A stretch of 25,006 bases of DNA, from positions 1 to 25,006 of the IMG/VR virus record IMGVR_UViG_3300030099_001072; one strand, 5' to 3'. The stretch comes from a virus. The position numbers and the translations under genes were made by a program. The stretch's first letter is position 1, and each line of letters opens with the position of its first letter. Below the pieces are notes generated by a model. That model was not told the DNA's origin. It did not search any database and was given only the letters and a program-made list of their open reading frames with translations. Below are positions 8,848 through 23,587 of this stretch, piece after piece.

Positions 8848-9258
8848 ATGGCTAAATCAGTAGTAAAAAATGCAAATAAAGAAACTATAGAAGAGCTACC
8901 AGAAATCGATATTTTTGATCGTTTAATGGAAACAACGGTACAGCCTGAAGTGTTTGATCTAAGAGAAGAACAGTATGAGGGTATGGCACCACCTCTTTAT
9001 GACGTCGATGTCGATGATATTACTTACCAAGCCCCGACAGAACTACCGATGGAATCAGAAGGCATTCGCTCTATTGGACTAGAAAGTGGAGGTAATGCTG
9101 GTATTGAAACTTTGAAACAAACAACTATACAGCTACAAGAGATGCCGCCTGACAGGAACATGACTGTCCTGCAAAGAATGATGAAACAAGCAGGGGCCCC
9201 GGCCCAGGACCCACGGCTCTTGGCTCAAGTGTCACAAGTCTTAGGAAGAGATGACTAG
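8848..9258 (+). CDS. 136-residue protein between terminase and effector, unknown function
   Basis: Starts after TTGAGGGTAAA. The protein is acidic and proline-rich, with low-complexity linkers and no fold signature. Its C-terminus (TVLQRMMKQAGAPAQDPRLL) forms a helix with an APAQDP turn. It overlaps the start of the 972-residue gene by 8 nt, so the two are probably co-translated. It might be a chaperone, a tether or a virion component for that neighbour, which is inference from position alone. Confidence 0.65.
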   Translation: MAKSVVKNANKETIEELPEIDIFDRLMETTVQPEVFDLREEQYEGMAPPLYDVDVDDITYQAPTELPMESEGIRSIGLESGGNAGIETLKQTTIQLQEMPPDRNMTVLQRMMKQAGAPAQDPRLLAQVSQVLGRDD

Positions 9259-12169
9259 CTATTTAGCACAACAGCAAGCCTACAAAGAAGATCCGGAAGC
9301 ATTTGCGGAAGGGCAATATTTTGGTGCTTCTATGATGCCCGGCACAGGTGAAGCCATAGCGGCTTATGAACTACCGGGTATTTTATCTCTTGGCGGAGGA
9401 ATGATACAAAGCGGCGATCCTTTAAAAGCTCTTGGTGGAGCTGGACTTATAACTTTGGGCACAGCTGCCACTCTACCAATAGTAGGTCCCGGAGCTAAAT
9501 TTTTAAAAAAAGGACTTGAAGGTTTTATTCCTTACCTTGGACCAAAACCAGCAGCGGAGGGTGTAGACACTTCTGTTTTAATGTCACAATTTGGTAATGA
9601 CCCTACAAAATTTGAGCCTAAAGGCAAAGTATCAGACACACAAAAAGCAAGAGAGCTAGGACAAGAAGAGCTGTTCCCTTCAGCTGTGAAAAAAGAAGAT
9701 CAGAAAGAAGAATTAAGTTTTGCTACAAAAGGTGATGAAACATATAGTTTGGGGCCCGGAAGTTTGTTTAACCCAGAAACAAAACAAGGACGTAAACTTT
9801 TAATTGTATCATGCAGTGATAAGAAGTGTCCTGATGATAAAAATATGAAAGCGATAGATAGATATTTGGGGCCTGTCTTTCAGAGTTTAAGAAAGCAAGG
9901 CGTTCCAGAAAACGTAGATGTCGCTATTATGTCCGCGAAACACGGACTTATCACAGCAAACACTCCTTTAAAAAACTATAATGAAAAAATGTCTGTGGCT
10001 AAAGCACAGGCGTTTAAAAACGATCCTGATCAATTAAACAGGATAAAAAACACAATGACAGGGTATGACGATGTGATTGTGCAAGGCGGATCTTTGTATA
10101 AGGATGTTATAAGAGCAGCTGCGGGAGACTTGAAAATCAATGAGATACCGGGCGGCAGGGGCATAGGCGATCAGCGTAAGTCTGTTATAAATGCAATAAA
10201 AACACCTTTCAGCAAAATAGACACACCTGTATATCATTACACAAAGAAAGCAAAAGAGGGCTTTACTGAATTTAGATTACCCGACGATGATCCTGATCCT
10301 TTATCAGTATTAGGTGTTCATGTTGGATCAACACCAAAGGCAGCGAAAGATAGGTACGTTGCTACTGTTTATGGACCAGCTGTTAAAACTTACTATAGAC
10401 AAGGTATGGATCTTGATACAGCTATAAAAAAAACAGAAAAAGAATATGGTGCTGATCAAATTATTTATAATCAACCAGGTAAAGATATTAGTCCCGGTAG
10501 TGTGCCTTTAAAGGCTGATTTAAGTAAACCATTTTTAAATCCAGAAACAAAAAAACCATTTACAGAAAGTGAGCTTTTTAGGCTTTTAGAAAAGCCTGAT
10601 GATGTTATGGACACAGTCATTTATGAAAGAACTGTTGATAATGCAAAAGAATTGAGAAAACTTTTATCTAAAAAAGGTTTCACTCATATTCCTTATGTGA
10701 ATGATTTTGAAGATGCAGGAAACTTATCTTACATCATGCTGGTAGACAGGCCAAAGGGTACCACAAAGGTATTGCAGAGCCCATTCGCTAAAAAAGATCC
10801 CTCCGCAGCGGATGATCCAGATATTATGAAGCAGGAAGGCGGCGTGGTTGAAATGAAAGACAAGGCAATCAATATGAACCGTGGCCCACGGGGCATAGGA
10901 CCTTTTGCACAGTATCTTGAAACTGGAGGTGAGGTTCAGCCAGAAAGAAATATATTTGAAGAGCAAGCTCCAAAAATAGTCCCTGCCAAAACAGAGGCAG
11001 AGGCTCTATCAGAACTTGCTGACCAAGAAATGGGTTTAGAATTAATTAACAGAGTAGGCTCCGATCCACTGGCTTATAAAATGATGCAAGCTGGTTTAAG
11101 AGATAATAGAACATTGTCTGATTTTTTAACAATATATCCAACAGTTACGGACGACATGACCGAAAAACAAAGAAAGGATTCTTTAACAGAACAGATAAGA
11201 GGCCTCGGACTTGCTCAAGGTATGTATTTTCCTTTGGATAATATGGTAGTAGTAGCCCCAATGAACGTAGCAGATGATTATTTTCAAAGTCCTACTGACA
11301 TGATAATTATGCACGAAATTTTGCACAAGGGAGCAGAGACTTTAAAAAAAGATCCTAACGTAAATATAAAATCTTTAAGAGAAAAGTTAGACACAGATGA
11401 CTATGCAAACATAGGTGATGAAACAAAACCGGGTCGTGCTGAACATAGATACATTCAAGCTATAGTTAACAAAGCTTATGTAGATAATATGCTAACACAG
11501 TCTTCAATTTACGCTAACAGAGCTATTAATGAGGCTCGAAAAATTTTAAATGATCCAAAATCTGATGATTTTAAAAAAGAGCTTGCAGAAGATGCGATAA
11601 AATTTGAATCTAAATATGTAGAGAGAAATCAAAAGAGAGCTTTATTAAAAGAAATTAGACGATCTACAGACTTTTACATGGAACAATCAGGTAAAGATAA
11701 ATTTAAACAATCAATGAATAAAATGTTTCCGAACAAAGGTTTATTTGATGAGGACGCAGAGGATGTAGAAAATAATTTTACATTAAAAGAATTAAAACAA
11801 ATATTTAATTTACTCAACACGACGATGTTGGACCAACCAGGCACTAAAGAATTTGCTTTAGAAATGTCAAAGTCAGCTCCGGCTGGAGCATCAATCAAAG
11901 GTTATTCAGATCTTTTTCCTACTCAGTTTGCAGATCCAACCAAACCTTATTTCAACGAAGAAAGAAAAAGAACATATGACTTAGAAGGAATTGAGGACCC
12001 AAGCTATATTCAAGTGATGAGTGCAAGAAGTAAATATTTAGAAAAAATGAGAAAAGATAGAGAAAAACAAAATAAGGCTAAAGGCGGCGTAGTTGAAATG
12101 AAAGATAAAGCTGTTAATATGTACAGAGGTACACAAGGTATTGAACCTTTTATCAAATATATGGTATAG
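9251..12169 (+). CDS. Multidomain polyvalent-type protein: YaaA/DUF6884-like, ART-like and HEXXH peptidase
   Basis: This 972-residue protein has several regions. Residues 25-95 are Gly/Ala-rich and hydrophobic, possibly membrane-active. Residues 181-310 (LLIVSCSDKK at 183-192, AIMSAKHGLI at 225-234, VIVQGGSLY at 275-283) resemble DUF6884/YaaA-like domains. Residues 326-512 (VYHYT, FTEFR, LGVHVGST, KGFTHIPYVND, LSYIMLVD) resemble the ADP-ribosyltransferase-like domain of phage polyvalent proteins. HEILH at 688-692 is a zinc-peptidase HEXXH motif, with AEHRY at 730-734 as a possible third ligand. GGVVEMKDKA (530-539) recurs, nearly intact, at 945-954. The gene lies between terminase and portal, so the product is probably a virion protein delivered with DNA. 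Each domain call is from motif reading only. Confidence 0.65.
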   Translation: MTSYLAQQQAYKEDPEAFAEGQYFGASMMPGTGEAIAAYELPGILSLGGGMIQSGDPLKALGGAGLITLGTAATLPIVGPGAKFLKKGLEGFIPYLGPKPAAEGVDTSVLMSQFGNDPTKFEPKGKVSDTQKARELGQEELFPSAVKKEDQKEELSFATKGDETYSLGPGSLFNPETKQGRKLLIVSCSDKKCPDDKNMKAIDRYLGPVFQSLRKQGVPENVDVAIMSAKHGLITANTPLKNYNEKMSVAKAQAFKNDPDQLNRIKNTMTGYDDVIVQGGSLYKDVIRAAAGDLKINEIPGGRGIGDQRKSVINAIKTPFSKIDTPVYHYTKKAKEGFTEFRLPDDDPDPLSVLGVHVGSTPKAAKDRYVATVYGPAVKTYYRQGMDLDTAIKKTEKEYGADQIIYNQPGKDISPGSVPLKADLSKPFLNPETKKPFTESELFRLLEKPDDVMDTVIYERTVDNAKELRKLLSKKGFTHIPYVNDFEDAGNLSYIMLVDRPKGTTKVLQSPFAKKDPSAADDPDIMKQEGGVVEMKDKAINMNRGPRGIGPFAQYLETGGEVQPERNIFEEQAPKIVPAKTEAEALSELADQEMGLELINRVGSDPLAYKMMQAGLRDNRTLSDFLTIYPTVTDDMTEKQRKDSLTEQIRGLGLAQGMYFPLDNMVVVAPMNVADDYFQSPTDMIIMHEILHKGAETLKKDPNVNIKSLREKLDTDDYANIGDETKPGRAEHRYIQAIVNKAYVDNMLTQSSIYANRAINEARKILNDPKSDDFKKELAEDAIKFESKYVERNQKRALLKEIRRSTDFYMEQSGKDKFKQSMNKMFPNKGLFDEDAEDVENNFTLKELKQIFNLLNTTMLDQPGTKEFALEMSKSAPAGASIKGYSDLFPTQFADPTKPYFNEERKRTYDLEGIEDPSYIQVMSARSKYLEKMRKDREKQNKAKGGVVEMKDKAVNMYRGTQGIEPFIKYMV

Positions 12170-19567: not shown

Positions 19568-19596
19568 AAAAGGGGTCTTTTCAGGCCCCTTTTTTT
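19568..19596 (+). terminator. Intrinsic terminator after the coat gene
   Basis: AAAAGGGGTC (19568-19577) pairs with GGCCCCTTTT (19584-19593) around loop TTTTCA with one G-T pair, followed by T residues to 19596. It should insulate coat expression from downstream genes. Confidence 0.9.
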
Positions 19597-19614
19597 ATGT
19601 ATAATATAATTACC

Positions 19615-19660: not shown

Positions 19661-20167
19661 ATGGCTAACTCAACTTTCTCAGGTCCATTGAGATCTGAAA
19701 GCACAATCAAAACTGTAAGTAAAAATGCTTCTACAGGAGCAATCACAGAAGTAATCACAATGGGCGATGCACCTGTTGCATTAGGGGATGAGGACAAAAC
19801 ACTTGATAATGCGACACATAGCGGTAGAGTTTTGGCAGTTCCAGCACTTGGATCTAACAGAACAATAACATTACCAGCACCAGTTGCAGGAGCTACTTTT
19901 AAATTTATTTACGCAGGTGCCGCTGAAGAGGCAGAAAATTTAATAATAGTCACTCCTGGAAACTCAAACTTTTTCTTAGGTAATGTTCAGCATTTAGACA
20001 CAAACGCAGACAATGTAGGCGTTTACGCAAATGGTAGTTCTAATTCAAAGTTAACTTTGACAGACTTTGGTAGCATGGAAATAAATATAGTAGGTAAAGA
20101 TAGTACGAATTACTATATTTGGGGTAACGTAGTTTCTGAAGACGCTCCAGCTTTTGCTGATCAATAA
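19661..20167 (+). CDS. 168-residue beta-rich virion protein, possible decoration protein
   Basis: Begins MANSTFSGPLRSESTIKT after ACAAGGAGACACAT. The protein is dominated by short beta strands (NRTITLPAPVAGATFKFIY, LTLTDFGSMEINIVG) and resembles small surface proteins found after coat genes in marine phages. No membrane or enzyme motif is visible. The family name is not known to me. Expression is likely driven separately from the coat because a terminator intervenes. Confidence 0.6.
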   Translation: MANSTFSGPLRSESTIKTVSKNASTGAITEVITMGDAPVALGDEDKTLDNATHSGRVLAVPALGSNRTITLPAPVAGATFKFIYAGAAEEAENLIIVTPGNSNFFLGNVQHLDTNADNVGVYANGSSNSKLTLTDFGSMEINIVGKDSTNYYIWGNVVSEDAPAFADQ

Positions 20168-20179
20168 TAGGAGGCTCTA

Positions 20180-20452
20180 ATGGCAGGCTCTGACGTAAAA
20201 GCAAAAAGGATTACTGGAACAGGTTCATTAGCTGTGGGACCTGCTCGAATAAGACAAATACAATTAAAAACTGCATCTGGAACGCCACGGCTTACTGTTA
20301 CTGATGCAAGTGGCGGTGCTACAGTTCTTGATTTAGATTTTAATGCTTCAGACACTCATTCTGTTAATATTCCTGCGGAGGGAATAAAGGTTAGTGACAT
20401 ATTTGTTAGCACATTGACTAACATCACAGCCGCAACTTTTTTCTTTAACTAG
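20180..20452 (+). CDS. 90-residue beta-rich protein, unknown function
   Basis: AATAGGAGGCTCTA is a strong ribosome binding site. The protein is Thr/Ala/Gly-rich with regular strands (LAVGPARIRQIQLKTASG, VLDLDFNASDTHSVNI). Such small single-domain proteins can cap capsid or tail surfaces, but the position is the only hint here. It ends 8 nt before the next ATG. Confidence 0.6.
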   Translation: MAGSDVKAKRITGTGSLAVGPARIRQIQLKTASGTPRLTVTDASGGATVLDLDFNASDTHSVNIPAEGIKVSDIFVSTLTNITAATFFFN

Positions 20453-20459
20453 GATAAAC

Positions 20460-20744
20460 ATGACTAGGAAAAGGGACAAACAACCACCTAGAACAAAAAA
20501 ATATTACCGCTCCACTAAAAGTGGGGCGGGCATGACATCAGCTGGTGTGGCTAAATACAGACGTGATAATCCGGGCAGTAAGTTAAAAACTGCCGTAACA
20601 GGTAAAGTTAAAAAGGGATCTACTGCTGCAAAAAGAAGAAAATCATATTGTGCAAGAAGTGCAGGACAAATGAAGAAGTTTCCAAAAGCAGCAAAAAACC
20701 CTAATAGTAGATTAAGACAAGCAAGAAGAAGATGGAAGTGTTGA
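20460..20744 (+). CDS. DUF6321-like small basic protein
   Basis: The 94-residue protein is strongly basic and matches the pattern I associate with DUF6321 of environmental phages: GMTSAGVAKYRRDNPGSKLK (near 24-43), then KGSTAAKRRKSYCARSAGQM (56-75), and a terminal R-x-A-RRRWKC. The role is unknown. The net charge suggests nucleic-acid contact or tight packing against DNA in the virion. AGGATAAAC provides a weak ribosome binding site. It is the first of a run of basic genes. Confidence 0.65.
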   Translation: MTRKRDKQPPRTKKYYRSTKSGAGMTSAGVAKYRRDNPGSKLKTAVTGKVKKGSTAAKRRKSYCARSAGQMKKFPKAAKNPNSRLRQARRRWKC

Positions 20745-20950
20745 TGGCAACAAAAAGAGAAAAAGATTTTTTACATAATTTAGACAAAAGAATGTCTGTG
20801 CTTGAAGAGGTAATAAAAAGATTAGAAAGCAATCATCTTACACACTTACAGGCACAAATAGATAAAATTGATAGGCGTGTGTGGATGCTAATTGCAGGTG
20901 TAGTTATACAACTTGTATCTATTGTATTTATTTTTGTAGGAGGTAGATAA
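20744..20950 (+). CDS. Small coiled-coil membrane protein, XhlA-like
   Basis: A 68-residue protein whose ATG overlaps the previous stop (TGATG). Residues 1-44 form a charged heptad helix (DFLHNLDKRMSVLEEVIKRL), and residues 46-66 a membrane span (WMLIAGVVIQLVSIVFIFVG). This cytoplasmic coiled coil followed by one span resembles XhlA-type proteins, which accompany phage holins. An upstream ATG at 20732 lies within the previous gene and is less likely. Placement away from the holin at 15363 is odd. Confidence 0.6.
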   Translation: MATKREKDFLHNLDKRMSVLEEVIKRLESNHLTHLQAQIDKIDRRVWMLIAGVVIQLVSIVFIFVGGR

Positions 20951-21090
20951 TGGCCTTAGTAGGTTCACGAAAAAGAAAAGTAAAAAAAGTAATCAAAGGT
21001 TTAAACAAAGCGTCTAAATTACACGCTTCGCAAGCTAAAAGTTTAAAAAGTGTTTTGAAAAATGGCACCAAAAAGAAAAAAAGATCCTAA
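20950..21090 (+). CDS. 46-residue Lys-rich peptide
   Basis: The frame starts on the stop of the previous gene (TAATG) with AGGAGG 6-9 nt upstream. It begins MALVGSRKRKVKKVIKGLNK and ends in lysines and arginine. Almost a third of its residues are Lys or Arg. It overlaps the next gene by 29 nt. Coupling, the ribosome binding site and the shared basic character of its neighbours support it. Confidence 0.55.
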   Translation: MALVGSRKRKVKKVIKGLNKASKLHASQAKSLKSVLKNGTKKKKRS

Positions 21091-21358
21091 AGTTGGAACA
21101 GGAAAAAAGCCGAAAGGTTCTGGTAGACGCTTATATACGGACGAAAACCCTAAGGACACGGTTAGTATTAAATTTACTACGCCGTCGGATGCCAGAGCAA
21201 CTGTTGCCAAGGTTAAAAAAATCAATAAACCATTTGCAAGAAAGATACAAATACTTACAGTCGGTGAGCAAAGAGCAAAAGTAATGGGGAAAACTCAAGT
21301 TGCAAATATATTCAAAAAAGGTAAAGATAGTATTAGAAAACAAAGGAGCACAGCATGA
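21062..21358 (+). CDS. 98-residue basic protein, conserved marine-phage type
   Basis: Begins MAPKRKKDPKVGTGKKPKGS, a flexible basic tail, followed by RRLYTDENPKDTVSIKF and a probable small alpha/beta part (DARATVAKVKKINKPFARKI, QRAKVMG). I recognise the KKPKGSGRRLYTDENP segment as recurrent in marine phages. No function is known. It overlaps both neighbouring genes. Confidence 0.6.
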   Translation: MAPKRKKDPKVGTGKKPKGSGRRLYTDENPKDTVSIKFTTPSDARATVAKVKKINKPFARKIQILTVGEQRAKVMGKTQVANIFKKGKDSIRKQRSTA

Positions 21359-21573
21359 CCGTTGTTAGAACTGGACCCAAACCGGGTAAACAAAAGGTAA
21401 CATATTTTAAAAAAGGCGGTGCCGCAAAAAGTAGAGGCAGTAAAATTTGTCCTGCTGGCAAGGCATGGGCTAAAAGAACTTTTGACACATACCCATCAGC
21501 TTATGCAAATATGGCGGCATCCAAATATTGTAAGGACCCTAATTATGCAAAAGGGGCTAAAGGTAAAAAGTAA
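21355..21573 (+). CDS. 72-residue basic Cys-containing protein
   Basis: Begins MTVVRTGPKPGKQKVTYFKK on an ATGA overlap with the previous stop. The centre has KKGGAAKSRGSKICPAGKAW, and the aromatic stretch DTYPSAYANMAASKYCKDP ends in a Lys/Gly tail. Two cysteines (in ICPAG and YCKDP) could bind a metal. The KKGGAA motif echoes the GG tags in neighbours. The type is familiar from marine phage contigs but unnamed. Confidence 0.6.
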   Translation: MTVVRTGPKPGKQKVTYFKKGGAAKSRGSKICPAGKAWAKRTFDTYPSAYANMAASKYCKDPNYAKGAKGKK

Positions 21574-21956
21574 TGGGTGCTCTTAAAGATTGGGTAAAAC
21601 AAGATTGGGTGCGAATCGGCACTGACGGTAAGATTAAGGGCAAATGTGGTACCTCGAAAGATAAAAAAAATCCAGACAGATGTTTACCAAGATCCAAAGC
21701 AAATAGCTTGTCACAAGCAGAACGAGCTTCTACGGCAAGAAAAAAGAAAAAAGCAGGTGCAAAAGGTAAAACAGTTGTAGGTAATACACCAGCTGCTAAA
21801 GTAAGAAAAATGAGTTCTGGAGGTGCAATACCTAGCACAAAAGCAAAAAGACCCTTTAAAGGTAAAGTAAAAACAGGTAGTGTAGTAGCTAGAGGTTGTG
21901 GCATTGTCATGGCTAATAGAAGAAAACAAACAAAAGGTTCAGTAAGTCGTACATAA
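21573..21956 (+). CDS. 127-residue Lys/Gly-rich protein
   Basis: It starts in the stop of the preceding gene (TAATG). The N-terminal part DWVKQDWVRIGTDGKIKGKC continues to GTSKDKKNPDRCLPRSKANS, a segment I associate with many marine phages; its two cysteines may form a small metal knuckle. The rest is a low-complexity Lys/Arg tail with AERASTARKKKKAGAKGK, MSSGGAIPST and VVARGCGIVMAN. Histone-like composition suggests nucleic-acid binding, unproven. Confidence 0.6.
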   Translation: MGALKDWVKQDWVRIGTDGKIKGKCGTSKDKKNPDRCLPRSKANSLSQAERASTARKKKKAGAKGKTVVGNTPAAKVRKMSSGGAIPSTKAKRPFKGKVKTGSVVARGCGIVMANRRKQTKGSVSRT

Positions 21957-21971
21957 ATAAAGGAGGTACAA

Positions 21972-22247
21972 ATGGCTATGAAAAAAAAAGGTTTTGCAAA
22001 AAAAATGACTAAAGGCGGTTCTGTCGTTAGAGGTGCTACAAAAATGAAAAAAGGTGGTGCCGTTAAAAAAATGATGGGCGGAGGTGCTGCGGGCATGAAG
22101 AAAAAAGGTTTCGCTAAAATGAAGGGTGGCGGTGCAGCCGGTATGAAAAAGAAAGGTTACGCCAAAGGCGGTGCTGCGGGCATGAGAAAAAAAGGTTTTG
22201 CCAAAGGCGGTGCTATTAAGAAGATGAGAAGAGGCGGCCGAGCATAA
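21972..22247 (+). CDS. Lys/Gly-rich repeat protein
   Basis: The 91-residue protein is built of repeats: MAMKKKGFAKKMTKGG, then three units of the form GAAGMKKKGFAK, each separated by a few residues, ending in GGAIKKMRRGGRA. It is one of the most repetitive and cationic proteins in the window. AAAGGAGGTACAA is an excellent ribosome binding site. Repeats of Lys with small residues resemble histone H1-like tails or condensing peptides; function is inferred from composition only. The gene ends directly against a GTG start. Confidence 0.65.
   Translation: MAMKKKGFAKKMTKGGSVVRGATKMKKGGAVKKMMGGGAAGMKKKGFAKMKGGGAAGMKKKGYAKGGAAGMRKKGFAKGGAIKKMRRGGRA
22083..22205 (+). repeat. Three 36-nt coding repeats
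   Basis: Units at 22083-22118, 22131-22166 and 22170-22205 each encode GAAGM followed by three basic residues, then G-F/Y-A-K. The units differ at synonymous sites, so they are not a recent exact duplication. Confidence 0.8.
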
Positions 22248-22916
22248 GTGCCTTATCTTCAAAGTAACATCCCGCATTTTAAATGCTGGGTGAGAAGAGA
22301 GTATACGCACAATCACGAAAAATATCATGGTGAATTTATTCATGCTATGGCTATTGCAGTTACTACCGTGCCGGATAGATGTTTAAGTTTTCAAATGATT
22401 TTCACAGGTTGTGAGTCTGATTTTGATGAAAGTCAAAATATAAACGGTGGGGCTATGTGGGCTCGTATGCCGATTACAGCTCTAGTTGCAGATACTCCTT
22501 TGGACAATTGGCCAGAGCCTATGCCTGTTCATTTAGTCCAACCTTGGGATTGTAGTTCTCATCATCATTCGATAGTAAAACTAGACCGAGTAAGCTCAAG
22601 TCCTTGGAAATGTAAGATTGATGGTAAGTTTTACACAGGTAAATACCTTTTTACTGTAGATTATACAGAATCAGACATAGCTGATGATCCTGCTCAACAT
22701 AAACAAAGTCATGTAATAGAATTAACTGATGCTGGTAAATGGACTGGAAATATAGTAGCATTACCTAATAATAGGGTTCGTGCAACGAGTCCTGCATTAT
22801 GGGAAACTGGTGAAGGTGCTCCTGATTTCAAACCAAGCCAGTGGATTCATAATGCAGAATGTGATAATAGTTATATGGACCCAAGTGTTACGTTTGATAA
22901 TTTGTATAAGGATTAA
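22248..22916 (+). CDS. 222-residue conserved hypothetical, GTG start
   Basis: The start is a GTG immediately after the previous stop; AAGATGAGAAG upstream is a weak ribosome binding site, so coupling is likely. The protein begins MPYLQSNIPHFKCWVRREYT and has many aromatic and His residues (SSHHHSIVKLDRVSSSPWKC, TGKYLFTVDYTES). It is a well-folded, non-repetitive protein that I recall as recurrent in marine phage genomes in the head-tail region. Histidine-rich SSHHHS could bind a metal. Function is unknown. Confidence 0.7.
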   Translation: MPYLQSNIPHFKCWVRREYTHNHEKYHGEFIHAMAIAVTTVPDRCLSFQMIFTGCESDFDESQNINGGAMWARMPITALVADTPLDNWPEPMPVHLVQPWDCSSHHHSIVKLDRVSSSPWKCKIDGKFYTGKYLFTVDYTESDIADDPAQHKQSHVIELTDAGKWTGNIVALPNNRVRATSPALWETGEGAPDFKPSQWIHNAECDNSYMDPSVTFDNLYKD

Positions 22917-22918
22917 AT

Positions 22919-23587
22919 ATGGCAACTTCTAATTCAACAGACTTCGAGCTAGATGTAGCTGAATACATTGAAGAAGCTTTTGAGCGGTGTGGCTTAGAAG
23001 TTAGGACAGGGTATGATTTAAAAACAGCAAGACGCTCCATGAATTTAATGCTAGCGGAGTGGGCAAACAGAGGTCTTAATCAATGGACTATTGAACAACG
23101 CACACAAACAGTCACAGCTGATGATGTTGATTATTCCTTAGGTACTGATGTTATAGATATTCTATCAGCCGTGGTAAGAAGAAGTGGCACAGATTTTAGT
23201 TTAAGTAGAATTAGTAGAGATAGCTATTTATCAATACCTAATAAAACTACAACAGGACGTCCAACACAGTTTTTTTTAGATAGACAGATTACACCTAATT
23301 TAAAAATATGGCCTGCTCCTGAAAATAGCACTGATGTAATTCATTATGATGCTTTAACACGAATACAGGACGCAGATGGTTCGGTAAACACTTTAGAGGT
23401 ACCTTTTAGATTTTACCCTTGTTTGACAGCTGGTTTAGCTTATTACATTTCTTTGAAAAAAAATCCTAACTTAACACAAATGTTAAAAGCGATTTATGAA
23501 GAAGAATTTGAAAGAGCTATGGGCGAGGATAGAGACCGATCAAGTTTTACAGTTACTCCTGAATACAGTTATCTGAGGAGTAATTAA
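22919..23587 (+). CDS. Head-tail adaptor/connector-like protein
   Basis: The 222-residue protein resembles short-tailed phage adaptor proteins that ring the portal: residues 12-64 (YIEEAFERCGLEVRTGYDLK, then MNLMLAEWANRGLNQWTIEQ) form the helical part, and RFYPCLTAGLAYYISLKKNP with a following long helix forms the C-terminus. The strand pair around PTQFFLDRQITPNLKIWPAP suits the beta part. Similar proteins in P22 and T7-like phages stabilise packaged DNA. Homology to a named family needs testing. A neighbouring gene at 24087 has a similar layout. Confidence 0.6.
   Translation: MATSNSTDFELDVAEYIEEAFERCGLEVRTGYDLKTARRSMNLMLAEWANRGLNQWTIEQRTQTVTADDVDYSLGTDVIDILSAVVRRSGTDFSLSRISRDSYLSIPNKTTTGRPTQFFLDRQITPNLKIWPAPENSTDVIHYDALTRIQDADGSVNTLEVPFRFYPCLTAGLAYYISLKKNPNLTQMLKAIYEEEFERAMGEDRDRSSFTVTPEYSYLRSN

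Follow-up and report, generated by a model that had tools for sequence, protein, structure and literature searches.

The window, the stretch of DNA analysed here, is a 25,006-base virus record of an HTVC023P-type podovirus. The capsid protein that it encodes shares 73% identity with that of the Pelagibacter phage HTVC023P, a podovirus infecting SAR11. Seven small open reading frames (ORFs), all on the + strand, are found between the capsid gene and the tail genes at positions 20460-22247. A brief description of each is presented in Table 1, in which the six genes for basic proteins are numbered B1 to B6; the same numbers are used below for their products, their families and the corresponding protein modules.

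Table 1. Features of the window, with the properties of the predicted products
Feature	Position	Strand	Description
Gene between terminase and portal genes	9251-12169		972 aa protein
Terminator-like hairpin and promoter-like site	19568-19605		directly past the capsid gene
B1	20460-20744	+	94 aa, DUF6321 (PF19846), net charge +30, C-terminal Cys
Coiled-coil gene	20732-20950	+	small coiled-coil protein, a single membrane helix at the C-terminus; alternative starts 20732 and 20744
B2	20950-21090	+	46 aa, net charge +17, KVKKVIKGLNKASKLHASQAK motif
B3	21062-21358	+	98 aa, net charge +21, LYTDENPKDTVSIKF motif
B4	21355-21573	+	72 aa, net charge +16, near-invariant CPxGKAWAKRTFDTYPSAYANxAASKYC core; phrog_27331
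B5	21573-21956	+	127 aa, net charge +29, WVRIG...CGTSKxKxPDRCLP core, basic tail; phrog_23735
B6	21972-22247	+	91 aa, net charge +30, MKKKGxAKGG repeats
Gene after the basic block	22248-22916		Cys/Trp-rich

The net charge per residue of B1 to B6 is, in order, +0.32, +0.37, +0.21, +0.22, +0.23 and +0.33, and their pI values range from 10.3 to 12.0. The other 27 genes of the window reach at most +0.07, which leaves B1 to B6 as its only strongly basic genes, and their clustering has a P of ~1e-4 when the gene order is permuted. A preliminary description of the locus, which reported six small and strongly basic proteins among seven consecutive genes, is thus borne out, with all seven ORFs present as placed. 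Its statement that the six are also rich in glycine holds for B6 (26%) and fails for the other five (7-12%). The seventh product does have the membrane coiled-coil character ascribed to it, but the start given at 20744 has an alternative at 20732. The genes overlap or closely follow one another, as had been described: the ATG at 20744 overlaps the stop of B1, B2 begins on the last base of the coiled-coil gene, B3 overlaps B2 by 29 nt, B4 overlaps B3, and B5 overlaps B4 by 1 base; a gap of 15 nt separates B5 from B6. The separate module genes of the podovirus are probably translationally coupled. The strong terminator-like hairpin and the promoter-like site (10 of 12) past the capsid gene could be the start of a separate unit, 19661-22247; neither type of site is commoner in the window than in shuffled sequence. 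For the coiled-coil protein there is a weak match to NF048001, a family for head formation in gene transfer agents (E=5.4e-6, 26 bits against a cut-off of 50).

Short Lys-rich ORFs might be expected to arise by chance in an AT-rich genome. For B1 to B6 such a spurious origin is refuted, and we give it practically no weight, since they are under purifying selection, keep their order and have hundreds of homologs. Across relatives, where synonymous sites are near saturation (pS), the median pN/pS is 0.23-0.26 for B1, B4 and B5, 0.22 for B3, and 0.38-0.40 for B2 and B6. All six basic ORFs are real genes under purifying selection.

The distribution of the families was determined in 80 related contigs, of which 47 have the capsid gene as well as the gene at 22919; family counts refer to the interval between these two. 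The most widespread families are B4 and B5 (43 of the 47 relatives each) and DUF6321 (36), and their order is maintained. A more limited distribution is seen for B2 (12 of 47), B6 (11 of 47) and B3 (6 of 47), and other unassigned basic ORFs occupy the interval in relatives. Relatives of the coiled-coil protein are found in 10 of the 80 contigs. The phage C75C1, whose capsid gene was not recovered as a relative, has the order DUF6321-B4-B5, as in the window. In HTVC027P and 023Pt_psg01 the basic block is located upstream of the capsid gene, and in locus L077 the B4-B5 pair is relocated. Based on the conserved order, the order in C75C1 and the relocated blocks, the basic genes tend to travel together. 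A gene order not kept in relatives had been named beforehand as a refutation of the preliminary interpretation; the order was kept in the 47 relatives, and, with C75C1 and the natural fusion of modules into one protein (see below), this gives good support to the idea of a coordinated set. DUF6321 itself occurs in cyanophages, in Pelagibacter, Vibrio and Methylophilales phages and in other aquatic phages (143 records at E<=1e-5, 433 at E<=0.05); matches in bacterial and archaeal MAGs were taken as host-binned phage contigs because their taxonomy is scattered.

Concerning the protein families, B1 is a clear member of DUF6321 (Pfam: 46.5 bits, cut-off 28.5, E=5.7e-12), B4 matches phrog_27331 (E=6.7e-26) and B5 matches phrog_23735 (E=5.6e-24); all three families are without an assigned function. 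Matches of B1 to ribosomal protein L13 (E 0.06-0.15) were taken as chance. No convincing family match was found for B2, B3 and B6 in the profile libraries searched. The B4 family has the near-invariant core GSKICPxGKAWAKRTFDTYPSAYANxAASKYCKDPNYAK, and the B5 family keeps the CGTSKxKxPDRCLP core. Nine residues are invariant in DUF6321, two of them Cys. The second Cys normally ends the protein: it is terminal in 172 of 185 ORFs, and is found within 3 residues of the end in 183.

The AlphaFold model of B1 (DUF6321) is helical and confident (mean pLDDT 86), and that of B5 has a confident core and a low-confidence basic tail; at least two of the small basic modules are therefore predicted to fold. 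No relatives were found in the PDB by sequence or by fold, DUF6321 and B5 both giving no fold match there, and in a fold search of a viral library the DUF6321 model returned other DUF6321 proteins. Simple protamine-like polycations are ruled out for B1, B4 and B5 by their near-invariant, Cys-containing cores, and the predicted folding of B1 and of the B5 core points the same way. Histone-like and other known DNA-binding families gave no match in Pfam, NCBIfam or the PDB.

In T4-like cyanophages, DUF6321 forms the C-terminus of proteins that can be several hundred residues long. These long proteins contain motifs of other window genes, and the profiles of the window families agree. Since profile iteration could be circular, and since overlapping B4 and B5 calls in some short proteins look like profile drift, we made a leave-out test in which the profiles were retrained only on stand-alone proteins of <=150 aa and the targets were 57 non-redundant fused proteins. 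DUF6321 was found in all 57, B4 in 37, B5 in 20, B2 in 10 and B3 in 3; there were no matches in 1197 shuffled or reversed decoys. The B3 module is N-terminal in its three proteins (E ~1e-13), and the models used detected no B6 module in the fused proteins. The commonest order is (B3)-B5-B4-DUF6321. S-SM1_115 and Syn19_101, both of T4-GC 119, are examples of fused proteins. The fused protein of locus L384 has a dihydrolipoamide dehydrogenase-like start and may derive from a chimeric contig. No paper naming DUF6321 was found in the literature searched, within which the strict C-terminal position of this domain, the module fusions and the link to virion protein lists appear to be new.

The genes of the fused relatives sit amid neck, tail fibre and terminase genes. 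Such neighbours, and the position of the window genes between capsid and tail genes, would suit proteins that build the outer shell, neck or tail and are basic only incidentally. We consider this highly improbable: strong positive charge in six unrelated sequences better fits contact with nucleic acid, and none of the six matched a tail, neck or host-directed family in the profile libraries searched.

Two DUF6321 homologs have been reported from CsCl-purified virions. S-CREM2 ORF137 (108049-109521), which has a DUF6321 C-terminus and in which our models detect no other module, belongs to the CsCl-purified virion proteome of that phage, with 4 unique peptides and 4.1% coverage (PMC10665884). 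S-SCSM1 gp29 carries the B5, B4 and DUF6321 modules and is labelled 'virion protein' in its record. We took this label to mean that gp29 was detected because it is shared by the major capsid protein and by the NMNAT ORF91, which the S-SCSM1 paper names as detected by mass spectrometry (MS). According to the authors of both the S-CREM2 and the S-SCSM1 studies, CsCl preparations may contain non-virion proteins. S-SZBM1_192, a DUF6321 protein of 165 aa, is absent from the 30 proteins detected in S-SZBM1 virions. Two further candidates, S-SZBM1_190 and S-SCSM1 gp92, were rejected as they do not contain DUF6321; the correct proteins are S-SZBM1_192 and gp29, respectively. The earlier suggestion of virion proteins has indirect support through the cyanophage homologs in S-CREM2 and S-SCSM1, with S-SZBM1 as a negative case.

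The result for S-SZBM1_192 would be expected if the modules were assembly or packaging factors, at work while the prohead forms or DNA is packaged, and missing from the finished virion or present in traces. In several phage groups their genes also have capsid, scaffold and terminase genes as neighbours. Against such a role are the two DUF6321 relatives reported from purified virions, and we regard it as unlikely.

The internal proteins of T4 are directed to the head by a ten-residue N-terminal sequence and are cleaved after L/I-X-E (PMC9026906). T4 ipII and ipIII start with MKTYQEFIAEA, and similar starts are found in P-SSM7_194 (MKTYSQFIEEG), S-SZBM1_192 (MKTFKQYITEA) and AG-345-E15 (MKTFEQFTEG). 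Of 85 fused cyanophage proteins, only 3 have a start of this kind, a count without a clean background because all loci were selected for these modules. The basic proteins of the window have no N-terminal capsid-targeting sequence. The motif [LIV]xE[GAS] is found before DUF6321 in 23 of 57 cases (expected 8.3), before the B5 module in 16 of 30 (expected 3.9) and before the B4 module in 18 of 35 (expected 5.0). Control motifs based on K and D are also enriched at one or two module boundaries, because the linkers between modules are conserved; clear enrichment at all three is seen for the E motif only. The candidate xxE/G, xxE/A and xxE/S sites, together with the targeting-like starts, are suggestive of processing by a protease and of a route into the head, and no more than suggestive. 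S-SCSM1 has a T4-type prohead protease. No S77 or S78 protease was found in seven HTVC023P-type records, which fits the modules being separate genes there.

T4 capsid-targeting-like starts are also seen in cyanophage NMNATs, which are reported from virions (MKSFLQFLKEA in L492 36820-38049 and MKSFSKFFSEA in L097 454-1746; the S-SCSM1 NMNAT begins with MKSFLQFLKEA), and such a start could explain the occurrence of these enzymes in particles. Directly after the fused DUF6321 gene, several cyanomyoviruses have a conserved gene of ~105 aa with the start MKSFxxFLSES or MKTFKQFMSES (for example L093 4209-4526 and L493 14216-14536), whose product looks, from its start, like another head-targeted protein. 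Near the DUF6321 gene of S-SZBM1, S-SZBM1_194 (L412 28253-30376, minus strand) encodes a basic protein of 707 aa containing an S-adenosylmethionine lyase domain (PF23780, E=6.8e-8).

Based on these results, we favour, with moderate confidence, the reading that the chain consists of small basic modules acting as internal head proteins associated with the packaged DNA. The modules would be made alongside the capsid genes and would then enter the head, where they may rest on or between the packaged DNA through their Lys/Arg-rich surfaces and neutralise or tether part of it. They would probably enter the cell along with the DNA. In the podovirus the modules have separate genes, and in T4-like cyanophages homologous modules are strung in one protein that ends in DUF6321 and that the prohead protease may cut, releasing them. 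The charge makes DNA condensation by these proteins plausible: one copy of each of the six amounts to +143, and ~84 sets would balance 10% of the phosphates in a genome taken to be 60 kb. Since the cores are conserved and specific, each module may have a more precise task than neutralising charge in bulk, for instance linking DNA strands to one another or DNA to the shell.

The closest functional analogues may be T4 IPI, IPII and IPIII and the other head proteins processed by gp21, which are small to medium proteins packaged with DNA, as is proposed for the basic set, and found in virions, as is reported for the two cyanophage DUF6321 homologs. About 1000 molecules of the T4 internal proteins are packaged, and their lysines touch DNA phosphates (PMC3012670). 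The likeness extends to the N-terminal start in a few cyanophage relatives only. The T4 proteins are far less basic (net charge of the whole ipI, ipII and ipIII: +2, +4 and +9, respectively, against +0.2 to +0.4 per residue in the window), and neither the window proteins nor the module models matched ipI, ipII or ipIII at E<=10. As there is no sequence match and the window proteins are without the targeting sequence, the basic set is not a member of the T4 internal protein family, but by analogy it may work like these proteins.

T4 IPI is also the model for proteins that are packaged in the head and ejected to work in the infected cell, for instance by countering restriction or by acting on the host nucleoid; IPI* is ejected and blocks a restriction enzyme (PMC3012670). 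The conserved specific cores suggest a defined target, as such a role would require, and NMNAT, whose gene adjoins DUF6321 genes in P-SSM7 and S-SCSM2R, has itself been reported from cyanophage virions. However, the cores barely vary between phages whose hosts differ widely, unlike fast-changing counter-defence proteins, and no host-directed family was matched in the profile libraries searched, so that we think a host-directed function decidedly unlikely. The more specific proposal of host-nucleoid factors in the preliminary description has charge as its single support.

Outside the tailed phages, PBCV-1 also has several basic proteins in a dsDNA virion, in some of which a small basic domain is fused to others (PMC3281028), although this virus infects a eukaryote and packages its DNA in another way. 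PF08789, the PBCV basic adaptor domain, had no match in the window at E<=10. The protamine-like core proteins of adenovirus and baculovirus, several small basic proteins packaged with dsDNA, may be compared by analogy only.

Tailed phages are usually thought to neutralise their packaged DNA with cations and polyamines, and basic proteins to play a minor part (PMC3281028). If the set described here sits on packaged DNA, it would be a clear exception among very common viruses. More tentatively, and with less conviction than for the role in the head, we propose that aquatic phages with unrelated capsids and tails have in common a portable kit, at least five small basic modules that organise head DNA, encoded in podoviruses as an operon with one module per gene and in T4-like cyanophages as a single DUF6321-ended protein, where the prohead protease would cut it into the same pieces. 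The fusions make a string of unnamed small genes one testable system.

Two other genes of the window are also described here. For the gene that follows the basic block, the match is phrog_3704 (E=8.8e-35), whose 'ferredoxin' label is odd between head and tail genes. The gene lying between those for the terminase and the portal encodes a 972 aa protein with DUF6884, in which a GGVVEMKDKAxNMxRGxxGIxPF motif occurs twice, once at the C-terminus.
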